From the IMG/VR virus record IMGVR_UViG_3300034152_000478, positions 86,883 through 150,882 of that record: a DNA stretch of 64,000 nucleotides. The stretch is one strand, 5' to 3'. The position numbers and the translations under genes are program-made. Shown here in pieces: positions 3,679-63,175 of this stretch (the first letter of the stretch is position 1; the number at the start of each line of letters is the position of its first letter). Source of the stretch: a virus. The notes beneath the pieces are model-generated. The model searched no databases. It saw only the letters and a program-made list of their open reading frames with translations, and was not told the DNA's origin.

Positions 3679-4669
3679 GATGCTCTTTCAGGTCTTTCAT
3701 AAACTGCTGATAAAGCTCTGCGTCTTGATACAGAGCATTAACAAACCTGGCTTCACCTTGGAACTTTTGGTCGGCATATTCATACCAGGCTCCCTTGGTT
3801 TTTACCAGGTTAAACTGCATAGCAAGATGCATCGCATCCCAACGACCATCAATACCACGTCCGTATATCAACGGAATTTCTGTCTCTTGAAACGGGGCTG
3901 CGTATCCTGTCTTCATTGTCTTTACGCGAATATAATGACCAACAGGCTTTCCACCTCCGCTTCCCTTGATTATCGTTCCACGTTTGAATCTGATTATATT
4001 ATCAGAATAGAATTTGATTGCCTCACCACCGGGGGCGCTTTCCGGGTCTCCATAGCTGACCATTTTCATGCGTATTTGATTCATGAGAATCAAAGCAACG
4101 TTGTTCTCCTCTAAGAATCCAGCTATCTTAGGCAGAAAGGTGCTGAACAGTTTTGGTATAGGTGCATAGAAATCTTTCTCTGTGCTTTCTTTTAGCTGTG
4201 CTGAACTAATACAAGCAGGAATTGAGTCAAGGACCACAATGCTATTTGGCGACTGCTTGACGATAATCTCAATCACATCGGCTGCTTGTTGTCCGTGCTC
4301 CGGGCGAAACACTTTCCCTTCCAGCTTGCTCACATCCAGGCCGTGTATCGTCTCCAGCAATGATCGTCTCAGCCTACGCTCTTGATCAACATAATAGCCG
4401 ACTATTCCTTTCTGTTGACCCTGTGCAATAATACTGAGGCCCATTGAGGTTTTACCTGCACCATGGCTACCGAATATCTGAGTCACCCCAGGTGCTATGC
4501 CGCCACCTATAATATGGTCCAGAGAAACACTCCCCGTGCTCACCATAAACGATGGCGCAAGAGCCTCAATCGAACGAGCAATGCGCTCGCCGCACTTTTG
4601 CTTTACCAGGTCTACGACAGCGATTGCTTCATCAATCTCGTCAGGCGTCTTCTTCCTTCGTCCCATCAC
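3668..4669 (-). CDS. recA: RecA-family recombinase
   Basis: 333 residues. Walker A GSHGAGKTS lies at 67-75, the catalytic glutamate in VDQE, a Walker B strand at IVVLDS, and the RecA signature region MNQIRMKMVSYGDPESAPGG, close to the loop L1/L2 area of bacterial RecA. It should form filaments on single-stranded DNA and drive strand exchange. Two adjacent Met codons (4669, 4666) can serve as start. The gene overlaps its upstream neighbour by 29 bases, in line with replication-coupled expression. Confidence 0.88.
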   Translation of the reverse strand: MMGRRKKTPDEIDEAIAVVDLVKQKCGERIARSIEALAPSFMVSTGSVSLDHIIGGGIAPGVTQIFGSHGAGKTSMGLSIIAQGQQKGIVGYYVDQERRLRRSLLETIHGLDVSKLEGKVFRPEHGQQAADVIEIIVKQSPNSIVVLDSIPACISSAQLKESTEKDFYAPIPKLFSTFLPKIAGFLEENNVALILMNQIRMKMVSYGDPESAPGGEAIKFYSDNIIRFKRGTIIKGSGGGKPVGHYIRVKTMKTGYAAPFQETEIPLIYGRGIDGRWDAMHLAMQFNLVKTKGAWYEYADQKFQGEARFVNALYQDAELYQQFMKDLKEHLEV

Positions 4670-5141
4670 CTTCTCCTAAGTGCTGTGTAGCTTGGAAGAC
4701 ATTGGCTGGCTTCTGCTTCGTAGTAAGCTCTATCAGGGCTTCTTCAGCGAACGTATCTCCATTCGCATTTTCTTCTTCTGCGTTTACCAGCACTTGTTCA
4801 ACTTCTTCTTCTTTGATTAGGCACTTGTATTGCTTCAATACTGGGATAATAAGTTGGAATGCAGTAATTCCTGGCTTACGTTTTATCATCCCAAACATCA
4901 TTTTCTTGATTGCCAAAAACTCATTGCGCAGACGCGACACTTTGGCCTTCTTTGTCCAGAAGTACGGCGGCACATTCTTAAATCCGTAGCGCTGCACTAT
5001 TATCCATTCCGCAATAGCATCCATAAGATACCATTCACGTTTGGGGGTTGTAATAGACCGCAGCTTTAGAGTTGTTCCGTCGCCAACTTGATTTTTAGGA
5101 GGTTCCCATCTTGGTCGCTTTGATCCCGATTTCACTTTCAT
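4641..5141 (-). CDS. Unknown protein upstream of recA
   Basis: 166 residues from the ATG at 5141, with a GAGAGGAG site about 12 bases upstream. The open frame extends to 5195, but starts there have no ribosome site and would overlap the upstream gene by 101 bases. The middle is basic and aromatic (YFWTKKAKVSRLRNEF), the C-terminus acidic. No domain recognised. The long overlaps on both sides indicate translational coupling with recA. Confidence 0.6.
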   Translation of the reverse strand: MKVKSGSKRPRWEPPKNQVGDGTTLKLRSITTPKREWYLMDAIAEWIIVQRYGFKNVPPYFWTKKAKVSRLRNEFLAIKKMMFGMIKRKPGITAFQLIIPVLKQYKCLIKEEEVEQVLVNAEEENANGDTFAEEALIELTTKQKPANVFQATQHLGEGDGTKEEDA

Positions 5142-34374: not shown

Positions 34375-34449
34375 TGGAGCGGCCAGCGGGACTCGAACCC
34401 GCATTGTCGACTTGGCAAGCCGATGCACTACCAGTTGTACTATGGCCGC
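34375..34449 (-). tRNA. tRNA-Gly, anticodon GCC, CCA encoded
   Basis: Minus strand. Acceptor GCGGCCA pairs with TGGCCGC, D-arm GTAC/GTGC with GGTA in the loop, anticodon stem TCGGC/GTCGA around loop TTGCCAA, and T-arm GCGGG/CCCGC around TTCGAGT. The discriminator T is followed by an encoded CCA. All arms close, so it should be functional. It may support translation of Gly-rich phage proteins or replace a cleaved host tRNA. Confidence 0.93.
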
Positions 34450-49781: not shown

Positions 49782-50018
49782 TTACTCTCCTTTGAAAACG
49801 CTTCGCCAGTAATTCGGATTCGCACAGAGGATCAGCTCAGCCCCCTCCTGGACGAGCCCGGCGTGCCGCACCTCTCGATCAGCGTCGTCCTTTAGTCGCC
49901 GACCGAGACAGTACAGCTCCTCTCGGTGCTTGGCCAGCCACTCTTCCTCCAGGGCATGAGTATCCCAGCCATATGCCCGCAGTAGCTTCTCCATGGAATC
50001 CGGCATCATTTCCCGCAT
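49782..50018 (-). CDS. Small unknown protein
   Basis: 78 residues, helical, acidic and basic clusters. Follows its neighbour with a 13-base overlap. Not recognised. Confidence 0.55.
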   Translation of the reverse strand: MREMMPDSMEKLLRAYGWDTHALEEEWLAKHREELYCLGRRLKDDADREVRHAGLVQEGAELILCANPNYWRSVFKGE

Positions 50019-55715: not shown

Positions 55716-55852
55716 GGTTTATCTCCTTCTAAACTAAGTTCTCCGCCGACCCGTAAAATCCGCTCCCATCCTACCCTTCGCCGACTATGGTCTGGTGTAC
55801 CAGGTCCGCAATTGCCTCGGCTGGCACGCAATTTGCCCAGATAACGTCCTTT

Positions 55853-56470
55853 CTAAATTCCATTAGATTCGTCAGGCTCATTTTCAGCTTTATTTTTCTT
55901 CTTTCTACCACCTCTTGCTCCATAATATCTTGCCGAATAACAGGTGAGAATTTTCATAATATCCTCTGCTAATTCTTCTTCATATTTCTTTTCTTTTGTC
56001 TCAACCACTTCAACGGTTATTTCAAGATTCTTGAAAATAGCATCAAGATATTCATAGCCAAATCGAGCCAGTCTATCTTTGTATTCAATCAACACTCGTT
56101 CAACTTTTCCTTCAAAACACATCCTGATTAACTTATGTATGCCGTTTCGCTTTTCGTTTATTCCGCTGGCAATCTCGTCAATCAGAACGTACTTGTAGCC
56201 ATTGGTTTCTGCATATTTTCTCAATCTATCTTTTTGCCGTTCAAGATTTTCTTTTTGTTTGGCCGTGCTACATCTCGCATAAATCACAGTCAACTTTTCT
56301 TGCTTCTCTTTCTCAACTCCCATGTAAGCATCTAAATCTTCCTGACGAAAACGTCTATGCTCGCCAGTAGTCTTGAAAGATTTTATCTTTCCGTTGTTGG
56401 CAAGCGTTTTGAGCGTGTTTATCGACACCCCAAGATACTCGCTTGCTTCTGTGATTTTATAGATTTTCAT
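55853..56470 (-). CDS. tnpA: IS607-type serine recombinase (TnpA-like)
   Basis: 205 residues. N-terminal MerR-like helix-turn-helix (ITEASEYLGVSINTL, then TGEHRRFRQEDLDAYMG) joined to a serine-recombinase domain with YARCST (catalytic Ser68, Arg66), EIASGINEKRNG and YKDRLARFGYEYL. Both length and order match IS607 TnpA, which joins and cuts DNA without terminal repeats. No tnpB follows; the gene overlaps the methyltransferase gene by 14 bases. AT-rich compared with neighbours. Confidence 0.85.
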   Translation of the reverse strand: MKIYKITEASEYLGVSINTLKTLANNGKIKSFKTTGEHRRFRQEDLDAYMGVEKEKQEKLTVIYARCSTAKQKENLERQKDRLRKYAETNGYKYVLIDEIASGINEKRNGIHKLIRMCFEGKVERVLIEYKDRLARFGYEYLDAIFKNLEITVEVVETKEKKYEEELAEDIMKILTCYSARYYGARGGRKKKNKAENEPDESNGI

Positions 56471-57479
56471 TCAATAAACCTTTGAAAATGTGTGCTATTA
56501 CATCAACTGTCCATCCATTACCAAGCATTTTTATTGCCTGTGTGTCATTTACAGCAGAAGTGTAGCCATCAGGTACGGTTTGTAATCTCTCACACTCTAA
56601 TCTTGTTAGTTTTCTAATCATACCTTCAATTTCATACAATCCAGTTTTACCACCAATTCCATCGCTATTAGCATTTAGTGTTGCTGATTTACCATCACTT
56701 GAATAAACTCTATTTCCTTGCGAAAAATTACGTTGTAATAACTTTCCATTATCAAGCCACAGTTTATGTGTTGGTTTCATTACACCACCCAAACAAACTA
56801 ATCCAAGGTTTGAAGAATGTTTATCCACTGGTATAAATAGTAAAGTATCTTTTGAAACGGTTGTCATTGCATTGCTTTTTTCAGTTCCGTTCAATTCATA
56901 TTTTTGAATTACCTTTCCGTTTTCATCGTATCTACCTCGTTGGGCTAACCCTAAACTTTGTAACCCATCTTCTGTAATATCTTTTAGTAGAATACCTTTA
57001 TCGTTTGGTAATCCTTTTACTGGTATGTTTGTCCAATAATATCTCACTCTATTTTGTGCTGATACTAAATTTGAGTTTATCATAATTGGTTCAACGCCTA
57101 AATAACTTGAAATTATATCTTGGTATTCTTTTTTCATTTTCACATTTTCAAGTAAAAAGTATTTAGGGTTTAATTCATTCTTCAACCTAACAAATTCAAA
57201 AAACAGTTTACTTCTTGGGTCATCAAAGTTCAATTGTCTTCCTGCCAATGAAAATCCTTGGCAGGGACTACCACCAATCAATAAATCAATATTCGGCAAG
57301 TTAGCACCTTTTATTTGCGTTACATCACCTATATGCTTTGTATTGGGGTAGTTATTTTGCGTTACAGCTATTGCGTGTTTGTCAATTTCAGAAGCAAAGT
57401 AATTTTCATACTTTATTCCAACTTTGTTGAGTGCTATTTGTCCACAACTCATCCCGTCAAATAGGCTTAATACATTCAT
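56457..57479 (-). CDS. DNA cytosine-C5 methyltransferase
   Basis: 340 residues. SLFDGMSCGQIAL (motif I), GGSPCQGFSLAG with the catalytic Cys73 (motif IV), FLLENVKM (motif VI), and KLTRLECERLQTVPDGY...IKMLGNGWTVDVIAHI (motifs IX-X). It would methylate cytosine in a short target, set by the variable region around 180-260. It may protect the phage or the mobile element from restriction. No matching restriction enzyme is visible. Strongly AT-rich. Confidence 0.88.
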   Translation of the reverse strand: MNVLSLFDGMSCGQIALNKVGIKYENYFASEIDKHAIAVTQNNYPNTKHIGDVTQIKGANLPNIDLLIGGSPCQGFSLAGRQLNFDDPRSKLFFEFVRLKNELNPKYFLLENVKMKKEYQDIISSYLGVEPIMINSNLVSAQNRVRYYWTNIPVKGLPNDKGILLKDITEDGLQSLGLAQRGRYDENGKVIQKYELNGTEKSNAMTTVSKDTLLFIPVDKHSSNLGLVCLGGVMKPTHKLWLDNGKLLQRNFSQGNRVYSSDGKSATLNANSDGIGGKTGLYEIEGMIRKLTRLECERLQTVPDGYTSAVNDTQAIKMLGNGWTVDVIAHIFKGLLNENL

Positions 57480-57631
57480 TTATTGTCTTTCAACCCCTTG
57501 ACTAATTTTTCGTTTGCGTCCACAATCTTCTGCATATCTTCAACAGAGATTTCTTTTTCCAAAGGCTCGAAGAAATAAACCTTTTCATCCTCTGTCTGAA
57601 AATACTCTTTGGTAACTTTGATTACTTTCAT
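57476..57631 (-). CDS. 51-residue protein, first gene of the methyltransferase operon
   Basis: MKVIKVTKEYFQTEDEKVYF then an acidic helix and EKLVKGLKDNK. GAGGAG precedes the ATG at 57631 and the stop overlaps the methyltransferase start (ATGA). It could be a regulator or partner of the enzyme; not recognised. Confidence 0.6.
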   Translation of the reverse strand: MKVIKVTKEYFQTEDEKVYFFEPLEKEISVEDMQKIVDANEKLVKGLKDNK

Positions 57632-57644
57632 TTTTCACTCCTCA

Positions 57645-57673
57645 AATATACTACATTTCGGGTTAAATAGCAA
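57645..57673 (-). promoter_or_regulatory. Promoter of the methyltransferase-recombinase operon
   Basis: TTGCTA (57673-57668), 17 bases, TATATT (57650-57645). It gives the AT-rich insert its own transcription start. Confidence 0.6.
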
Positions 57674-57688
57674 GTGATTTTAACCGAT

Positions 57689-57934
57689 TTATCTTGTTTT
57701 TGTTGGATTTTCATAAGCAGTTATAACCTCATCCACCAGCTCGGCATCTTGCCAGTCATCGGTGTTTTCCCAGTCGATCCGTTGCCAGAATGCCACCGTG
57801 CCGTCTGGCCGGACCGTGATGCCGTGGTCGCCGAATAACGCGTGATCCCCGCCAGGATAGCCCACTTGGGTCAGGTTCGGGTACAGTTCGAGGGCAGCCA
57901 ATTCCCTCAGAATGGCGTTGTAGCGGCTTCTCAT
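57689..57934 (-). CDS. Small unknown protein
   Basis: 81 residues with GGAGG before the ATG at 57934. Contains GYPGGDHALFGDHGITVRPDGTVAFWQR, a beta-rich part, and an acidic tail. Composition is like the phage, not the insert, so it marks the far edge of the AT-rich element. Not recognised. Confidence 0.6.
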   Translation of the reverse strand: MRSRYNAILRELAALELYPNLTQVGYPGGDHALFGDHGITVRPDGTVAFWQRIDWENTDDWQDAELVDEVITAYENPTKTR

Positions 57935-58202
57935 AAAGACCTCCGTTTAAGAGTTTAGAAACTACCGGATTGCCAAATAGTCAATTTCTTGACAAGGGCT
58001 CCGCCGACCGTTTCTGGCGGCTCCCTACATTTTCGCTCCATGCGTCCATAAGCACAGATTATAATCGAGAATTTTGTCCACTTTTGGTACAATTGTGGTT
58101 TAATAGTTTATAAACTGACGATCCACTATTTGCCTTCTGACGGTCCCGATTTTCCTACGTCCCATCCTATCGGTTTTCGGCTGTCGTCTATTGTGTGCCG
58201 TT
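57935..58202. other. Intergenic stretch
   Basis: About 270 bases. It holds CTCCGCCGACC (57999-58009), also present at 55741-55751 on the other side of the insert, a GC-rich imperfect hairpin around it, and a weak TTGACT box. No gene seen. Confidence 0.4.
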
Positions 58203-58415: not shown

Positions 58416-59264
58416 CTATAGACTTTTGGTGGTTTCCCGCGTTTCCGTCGTTTCCCTAATTCCCGTTTCTGGATTGCGCGATGTTTCGTGACAGAGACCG
58501 CACGATGTACACTTTCCGGTTTGACAGCATACTACCCTATCCTGATAGACATTGGCGGTTTTCTGGGTCAATTTCAAGTAGGATGCGTGATTCGTGCGGT
58601 ACGTTTTTAGACCGTCTATCGTGTTACCATGGTATAGGGTAATGATGTCGGACACATCGGCAAGATGCGCATCGTCTTCCGATAGCATAACGCATCGTAT
58701 CCTATACTTCCCAGGATCTGAAAACCTAAGCTTGATAGCTTCCATTATGTCTGTCGACCCTACCGAGTCTATAGACAATTGGATGCGGTCCAAAAGATCG
58801 GACAATCGTTCGATGGTGCTATATTGTTTTGTAATTGCGTGAAGGTTAAAATATTGGCGCATCGTTGCAAGGATAGGACGCCAAAAGGATACCGTTTCCC
58901 GTTCCACATCGGATAATGCGAAAACCCGAATTGAAAACCTATTAAAACCATAGACTTTCAGGATTTTCTTCAATTCCCTACAAAACCTATGGACAATGTC
59001 AAGATCGACGGCGCAATCTTGGAAAACCTTACCCATGAAAAAGCCGGTTTTCCCATAGAGCTTATAGAGATTCGCTTTGTAGCAGTAGGCGCATGGTTTT
59101 CCCTCTTTTTCCTTAGGGCAATGGTTCGATGCGTCAAGGGAAACCAGGGTTTTCCTATTGTACCGGACAAAACCTATACCTTTTTTGTTGTATCGGCCAC
59201 AGAGATTCTTGACCTTACGATGAAGGTTTTCTTCACGTTTTTTTGTCAAATGTTTGTACATCAT
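58416..59264 (-). CDS. GP88-like cysteine-cluster protein
   Basis: 282 residues with GGAGG upstream. CPKEKEGKPCAYCYKANLYK (Cys49, 58, 61) resembles the iron-sulfur-like cluster of the GP88 family of phage and plasmid proteins, distantly like radical SAM enzymes; the C-terminus adds CCQTGKCTSCGLCHE. The middle has beta/alpha units (FSIRVFALSDV, YRIRCVMLSED). It might be a redox or SAM-using enzyme; function unproven. Confidence 0.55.
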   Translation of the reverse strand: MMYKHLTKKREENLHRKVKNLCGRYNKKGIGFVRYNRKTLVSLDASNHCPKEKEGKPCAYCYKANLYKLYGKTGFFMGKVFQDCAVDLDIVHRFCRELKKILKVYGFNRFSIRVFALSDVERETVSFWRPILATMRQYFNLHAITKQYSTIERLSDLLDRIQLSIDSVGSTDIMEAIKLRFSDPGKYRIRCVMLSEDDAHLADVSDIITLYHGNTIDGLKTYRTNHASYLKLTQKTANVYQDRVVCCQTGKCTSCGLCHETSRNPETGIRETTETRETTKSL

Positions 59265-61361: not shown

Positions 61362-61712
61362 TTAACCCTTTTCTGTATGAGTTAGTGGTCCGTATACTTG
61401 GTGTCCACACTTGACACAGAAGAAGCCCTGCTTAGTGTAGCGGCTCGTGTCGTGAAAGCATATGGCGCACAGCTTTATTTCCTCTTCGTATCTACACGAT
61501 AGCGTTAAGAGCTGACCAGCCAAGTTGACAGCCTTTTCGACAAGTTGATTGTGGGCTGCTACAATCTGATCTAAAAACTCTCGTTCTGGCAGATGGAAGT
61601 AGGCAATCGGCTCCTTAGTTTTGGTACAGCGAATTGCGAAGACTTCTGTGTCTTCAGCAGGACCAAAGCGGTCTGCTGGCTCTATTCGAGTAAACACTTC
61701 CCACTTGTTCAT
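61362..61712 (-). CDS. Unknown protein with C-terminal zinc ribbon
   Basis: 116 residues. N-terminal strands (VFAIRCTKTKEPIAYFHL), a helix, then CAICFHDTSR and CVKCGHQVYGP as the ribbon. Overlaps the radical SAM gene by 4 bases. Function unknown. Confidence 0.58.
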   Translation of the reverse strand: MNKWEVFTRIEPADRFGPAEDTEVFAIRCTKTKEPIAYFHLPEREFLDQIVAAHNQLVEKAVNLAGQLLTLSCRYEEEIKLCAICFHDTSRYTKQGFFCVKCGHQVYGPLTHTEKG

Positions 61713-63175
61713 GGTTCGAGTCTCTTTAATGTTTCCAGGTGCGGGCGAGTTTCTTCAGTCAGGTTTCTAACTTGGCGGCGACCGAATGCACGGATGAAGC
61801 GGCCAAGAATCGAATCTTCTGTGTCGCTATAAAAATCCTTGAATGCCTGGATAATACCTTCCTGCAGTTCGACCGGCGTCATATGCTTGGGTTGTATGAT
61901 TGCGTGCTGGCCGTCATACAGGTGCCAGTCGTGCGTCAGGACGCGTCCCTCGGCTTCGAGACGTGCTGCTAAGGGTGTGCCTGGTAGCGGCGTCAGGGCC
62001 AGAAATTGGGCCGTACCGAGCTTCATTTCTTTGGCAAAAGCGACTGTCTCTCTGATGGTTTCTGGCGTGTCTACATCTGAGCCCAGAACGAATGTGCCAT
62101 GGAGGAAGATGCCCTTTGCATGGAAGCGCTCGATAGCCTCGCGGTTCTTCTCCAGGGTAGATCCCTTTCGCCACTGGCGCAATGCTTCGTTGCTGATAGA
62201 CTCAAATCCTATTATCACAGTCTCCATCTTGGTTTTCTTCATGAGATCCAGTAGGTCGTCATCGAATGCTGCCTCTATACGCGACTGACAAACCCAGCGA
62301 GGAAATTCCAGTCCTTCGGACAGGCAGCGGCTGAGGATCGCCTTGGCTCGATCTGGATTAGCGGTGAAGTTGTCATCGGCAAAAAAGACAGGCGCATTAG
62401 TACGCTTCAAATGATGTCGTATTAGCTCGATTGAACGGTCGATTGAAAGACAACGATACCGGCTGCCGAAGTTCTGGATGATAGAACAGTACTCGCAATT
62501 GTGCGGACATCCGCGTGAGGTTATAATGGTCTGATGAGTTATGTAGTCGAGCACGTTCTGAGGTAGGTTTGGGAACGGTAGGGCATTTAGCCCTTCATTG
62601 GTTAGGAATTCACGTGGCGGATTAACAACGACCTCTTTCTCTTGCTTATAGGCAATTCCCTTAATGTCACTTAAGAATGGTCTTTCGACATATTCGTTTA
62701 GTCGATATAAAAGCTCGATCAGCGTGTAGTCTCCCTCCTGCATGACCACGATATCGCCATGTTGAAGTGCCTCTTTTGGGAAGGCAGACACATGAGGGCC
62801 GCCAAAGATGATCTTAACACGAGGGTTGACTGACCGTATGAAATCCGCTAACTGATAAGAAGGAGATGCGGTTCGCGTGATAACTGAAATGCCAATCACA
62901 TCCGACTTGCAAAAGCGATCCCAGTCGGCGGATCTCAACAGTCGGCCACTTCGATTAACTACAGGCGTCATGGCAACTGTGTCAGAGAAGCCGCTTGTTT
63001 GTGCTATCGCAGCCAAATGATCAACGCAGCGGGCAGGAAGACGATAGAGTGAATAGAAATCTGTAGACAGATCGCCCGATAGCTGCCCGTTTGACAGCGC
63101 TGGCAATTCAACAAAAGTGATAATGAGATTCTTTTCCACTTTTCTGCTCAAAATGTTGCGCCACACTCGCCACAA
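61709..63175 (-). CDS. Radical SAM protein with B12-binding-type domain
   Basis: 488 residues. The first third has the cobalamin-type fold pattern (DVIGISVITRT, FGGPHVSAFP), the middle the iron-sulfur motif CPHNCEYC (Cys223, 227, 230), and then a TIM-barrel with VIIGFES, typical of BchE/ELP3-like methylthiolation or methyl-transfer enzymes. The substrate is unknown. The start is uncertain within about 63175-63139 because it overlaps the upstream gene. Confidence 0.78.
   Translation of the reverse strand: MWRVWRNILSRKVEKNLIITFVELPALSNGQLSGDLSTDFYSLYRLPARCVDHLAAIAQTSGFSDTVAMTPVVNRSGRLLRSADWDRFCKSDVIGISVITRTASPSYQLADFIRSVNPRVKIIFGGPHVSAFPKEALQHGDIVVMQEGDYTLIELLYRLNEYVERPFLSDIKGIAYKQEKEVVVNPPREFLTNEGLNALPFPNLPQNVLDYITHQTIITSRGCPHNCEYCSIIQNFGSRYRCLSIDRSIELIRHHLKRTNAPVFFADDNFTANPDRAKAILSRCLSEGLEFPRWVCQSRIEAAFDDDLLDLMKKTKMETVIIGFESISNEALRQWRKGSTLEKNREAIERFHAKGIFLHGTFVLGSDVDTPETIRETVAFAKEMKLGTAQFLALTPLPGTPLAARLEAEGRVLTHDWHLYDGQHAIIQPKHMTPVELQEGIIQAFKDFYSDTEDSILGRFIRAFGRRQVRNLTEETRPHLETLKRLEP

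Follow-up and report, generated by a model that had tools for sequence, protein, structure and literature searches.

An IS607-type phage transposon without tnpB and with an exchangeable gene, most often for a DNA-modifying enzyme

Insertion sequences of the IS607 family, such as IS607, IS1535, ISC1904 and ISC1926, encode TnpA, a serine recombinase with an N-terminal HTH, and insert without target duplication, leaving an identical dinucleotide at both junctions. The tnpB partner gene is usual in this family, although TnpB is dispensable for movement (PMC4058570, PMC6188088). IS607 prefers (G)GG as target, with no further pattern reported. Transposons with methyltransferase genes are also known from viruses. 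In algal giant viruses, Mariner-type transposons carry a methyltransferase and an endonuclease or Fanzor, and the methyltransferase stands where a TnpB-like protein (Fanzor) stands in a relative (Bao and Jurka 2013, PMC3627910). These are the nearest published parallel found, but they belong to a different transposase superfamily and to different hosts, and no exchangeable slot was found described for them. Integron-type gene cassettes are likewise interchangeable mobile units that carry DNA methyltransferases in phage genomes (PMC9892861). They use attC sites and arrays, whereas the element analysed here is a transposon with one internal slot. Compared with the IS607 family, it has no tnpB, an extra conserved 51-aa gene, exchangeable DNA-modification cargo, a GA rather than a GG core and, as a family, a strong preference for GGAGG. 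No description of such a family was found in the papers searched, which did not include preprints or most subscription journals.

The analysed window corresponds to the last 64 kb (64,000 nucleotides) of the 150,882-base viral contig IMGVR_UViG_3300034152_000478 from IMG/VR. Its assignment to a phage rests on the IMG/VR classification and on phage-type replication genes in the window (DnaB-like helicase, UvsX-like recombinase). A preliminary description, made from the sequence alone, reported an AT-rich operon at 55741-58009 in which a C5-methyltransferase gene upstream of an IS607-type tnpA takes the place of tnpB, and suggested that it may be a mobile protective methylase unit. The gene content was confirmed, but the element covers positions 55847 to 57730 (minus strand, 1884 bp counting both copies of the GA core). 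Its GC content is 0.31-0.40 along its length (about 34%), against about 0.49 in the flanks. The left end (57632-57730) is a conserved non-coding region that bears AAATC-like short repeats, seen by eye, which are possible TnpA sites; AAATTCC/AGATTC repeats were seen by eye at the right end. The left end also contains a sigma-70-like promoter (57645-57673), with a -10 box TATATT at 57650-57645 and a -35-like TTGCTA at 57673-57668, separated by a 17-bp spacer, although this is a consensus match only. A potential leader peptide at the left end, overlapping the 51-aa gene, has its frame broken in many relatives. No Rfam family was found between positions 50000 and 62000, and the only tRNA gene of the window is a tRNA-Gly(gcc) at 34375-34449 on the minus strand.

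Three genes follow on the minus strand, with overlaps of 4 bp (57476-57479) and 14 bp (56457-56470). The ORF at 57476-57631 encodes a 51-aa protein of unknown function that is conserved in most relatives. It is predicted to form three strands and a helix (AlphaFold2 pLDDT 92), and fold searches with this model gave nothing significant. The cargo gene (56457-57479) encodes a 340-aa C5 cytosine DNA methyltransferase (PF00145, 164.6 bits; TIGR00675 dcm) in which the motifs FDG, GGSPCQGFS, ENVK, QNRVRYYW and GNGW are intact. The tnpA gene (55853-56470) encodes a 205-aa IS607-type serine transposase, with an N-terminal MerR-like HTH (HTH_17) followed by a resolvase catalytic domain (PF00239). It scored 190.3 bits against the NCBIfam IS607 transposase model NF033518 (cut-off 110), contains the motifs YARCSTAKQ and KDRLARFG, and its PDB relatives are ISC1926 and IS1535 TnpA. 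It is the single tnpA match in this contig. No TnpB domain (PF07282) was found in the whole contig, and no cognate restriction endonuclease gene lies within the element. Beyond the element, the long ORFs at 58416-59264 and 61709-63175 have no PHROG match (the first also no Pfam match), and both look radical-SAM-like by eye.

A scan with TnpA returned 71 loci (designated here by L numbers, as are those from later searches), most of them 70-95% identical; about 70 IMG/VR contigs carry relatives. DNA comparison showed two conserved blocks, the left end with the 51-aa gene and tnpA with the right end, whereas most middles and the flanks were not conserved. Because these contigs were found by tnpA or by the small gene, elements that lost both are missed. 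Alignment of the ends placed the boundaries at an identical GA dinucleotide in nearly all complete elements, without target duplication. In the window, the left core is at 57729-57730 (junction GAT|GA|GGTT) and the right core at 55847-55848 (junction AAAG|GA|CGTT). In relatives, TnpB matches lie outside the element, in L007 and L038.

Joining the flanks through one GA restored an N6/N4 methyltransferase gene in L030 and a MazG-like gene in L034, each with family matches running across the junction. In the window, the 5' part (57731-57934, annotated as 57689-57934 by running into the left end) and the 3' part (55771-55846) of an interrupted minus-strand ORF give a 93-aa ORF when joined. As no homologue of this ORF is known, this is weak evidence on its own. 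The longest-ORF test on joined flanks was not significant overall (8 of 32 at 40 codons or more, against 22% for mismatched pairs), and only the cases supported by homology were therefore used. Searches for uninserted relatives with the joined ORF of the window, the gene downstream of L033 and a nearby gene of L022 gave none useful. No related phage carrying the methyltransferase alone at the site of the window was seen, no relative of that site having been found at all.

The genes located between the 51-aa gene and tnpA were then extracted. Representatives were identified as MT-A70, N6_N4_Mtase, MethyltransfD12, Dam, Mom and PAPS_reduct, plus two PHROG DNA methyltransferase families and phrog_424. 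Of 68 distinct elements with a readable slot, 46 hold a DNA methyltransferase or Mom gene (seven types, the window being counted as C5) and 9 a PAPS-reductase-like gene (L010, L017, L018, L036, L052, L154, L156, L267 and L290), against a background of 12 of 226 flanking ORFs in the same loci (Fisher p 7.6e-26 without and 4.7e-35 with the PAPS genes). These classes were assigned by BLAST to representatives checked with Pfam or PHROGs, and the labels were not each verified. The remaining 13 slots include a weak D12 methyltransferase match in L285 and divergent members with small unknown ORFs. On a tnpA tree of 41 rows, the cargo label needs 26 changes, against a mean of 27.6 in shuffles, so cargo type follows the transposase phylogeny no better than chance.

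Some elements deviate from this structure. Four elements (L267, L286, L290 and L321) have the left end, small gene and right end but no detectable tnpA; they are candidate non-autonomous derivatives and might be moved in trans. In L061 (5902-6687), the TnpA HTH domain is fused to a DPPY-type methyltransferase in place of the catalytic domain. In L255-L257 (about 4001-4871), the small gene is directly followed by an N6/N4 methyltransferase, downstream of what looks like a sigma-factor gene, with no recognisable ends or tnpA, and this is possibly a settled derivative. A NUMOD3-containing ORF, probably a homing-type endonuclease, lies between methyltransferase cargo and tnpA in several elements (L044:5409-5999, L047:5409-5999, L058:5457-5999 and L153:5457-5999). 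Moreover, LAGLIDADG-type endonuclease ORFs lie in or directly behind the 3' part of tnpA in several distinct elements (L028:6588-7499, L112:7526-8581, L233:4575-5606 and L223:4557-5387), as if tnpA were itself a homing target. The latter are supported by a Pfam match for L112 and L233, while L028 and L223 were read by eye.

The insertion sites were also compared. Forty of 59 distinct right junctions are followed by GG, that is GGA|GG, against 6% of GGA trinucleotides in the same loci, the control including all GGA on one strand of the loci, elements included. In addition, 23 of 59 have a start codon with an open frame 5-13 bases on, against 2.1%, and 39 of 51 left junctions are preceded by G. 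Since right junctions were located with a mismatch-tolerant motif, a few of the 59 may be false, which would dilute the GG signal rather than create it. Insertions thus favour GGA|GG, often the ribosome-binding site of the next gene. Because the element begins with GA-GG and ends with G-GA, insertion in GGAGG rebuilds GGAGG on both sides. The insertion in the window, at TGA|CG inside an ORF, is an exception to this preference.

Mean dN/dS is about 0.04 for TnpA and 0.08 for the 51-aa protein, indicating purifying selection on both genes. Element GC is 0.366 (SD 0.026), while the flanks span 0.27-0.68. A scan of one genome per species gave 6 loci, all in metagenome-assembled genomes. In isolated phages, the listed TnpA hits are below 40% identity, the five annotated ones that were inspected are followed by TnpB, and the 51-aa gene has no match there. 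A sister lineage of IS607-type phage elements, found through L112 (around L112, L226, L228 and L230-L232), has a related small gene and a TnpA 33-38% identical to that of the window, with methyltransferase cargo in several. Most of these elements keep tnpB, and the cargo often sits between tnpA and tnpB instead of before tnpA. Methyltransferases are found between tnpA and tnpB in L226, L228 and L235, or before tnpA in L112, L251 and L254. The simplest history is loss of tnpB in the lineage of the window, although this is inferred without a rooted tree.

Taken together, these features support with good confidence the view that this locus is one member of a virus-borne family of IS607-type transposons that lacks tnpB and has one exchangeable slot between a conserved 51-aa gene and tnpA, mostly filled with a DNA-modification gene, here a C5 methyltransferase. 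The preliminary description was supported as to the IS607-type tnpA, the methyltransferase without tnpB and the mobility, but it missed that the methyltransferase is one of many interchangeable cargo genes, that the 51-aa gene is a conserved part of the family, and that sister elements keep tnpB. Movement is inferred from sequence: TnpA would excise and insert the element by recombination at the matched GA dinucleotide, as in IS607 (PMC4058570, PMC6188088). It is likewise inferred that insertion at ribosome-binding sites leaves the neighbours translated, and that cargo is exchanged by recombination between the conserved flanks when two elements meet. The cargo may modify phage DNA and protect it from host restriction, which would repay the phage for keeping the element. 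This protective function remains an inference from the probable activities of these enzyme families elsewhere and from the shared theme of the slot.

Other explanations appear unlikely. The modification genes could serve the transposon rather than the phage, methylation of the ends or of the excised form controlling transposition or protecting the transposing DNA. Indeed, the cargo sits in one operon with tnpA, and protection of transposing DNA by methylases has been discussed for transposons (PMC3627910). However, the slot holds chemically different enzymes (C5, MT-A70, N6/N4, D12, Mom, PAPS-like) while the ends stay the same, so one specific mark on the ends is unlikely, and elements with other slot genes persist. 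It is also possible, though doubtful, that the cargo theme mostly reflects opportunity, since phages carry many methyltransferase genes and the slot might pick up whatever is common nearby without a shared function under selection. The methyltransferase-like ORFs in the flanks, the elements that lie in or next to such genes (e.g. L030), and the peptidase-like and unknown genes carried by sister elements would agree with this view, but the enrichment over the local background is large and spans unrelated enzyme families, including Mom and PAPS-like genes. An accidental neighbourhood of a resident phage methyltransferase and an inert tnpA remnant is very improbable. Although there is a single tnpA match in this contig and some relatives carry a broken tnpA, this reading is largely refuted by the same ends at unrelated sites, the restored interrupted genes, the intact catalytic motifs, the low dN/dS and the constant element GC.

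A broader hypothesis, which seems slightly more likely than not, is that phages share a dedicated family of transposons that circulates anti-restriction genes as interchangeable modules, in which tnpB is replaced by cargo that repays the phage and insertion at Shine-Dalgarno sites makes the element nearly harmless. It would explain how phages acquire and swap orphan DNA methyltransferases and Mom-like enzymes across very different genomes, and gives an IS607 lineage that has probably dropped its RNA-guided nuclease gene for genes of likely use to the carrier. Under this hypothesis, the slot could also be used to find new DNA-modification enzymes by guilt by association, beginning with the PAPS-reductase-like cargo and the unknown slot genes. 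The PAPS-reductase-like phage genes (phrog_424), filed by PHROGs under moron/auxiliary metabolic genes, occupy the same slot as the DNA methyltransferases and become candidates for DNA modification.
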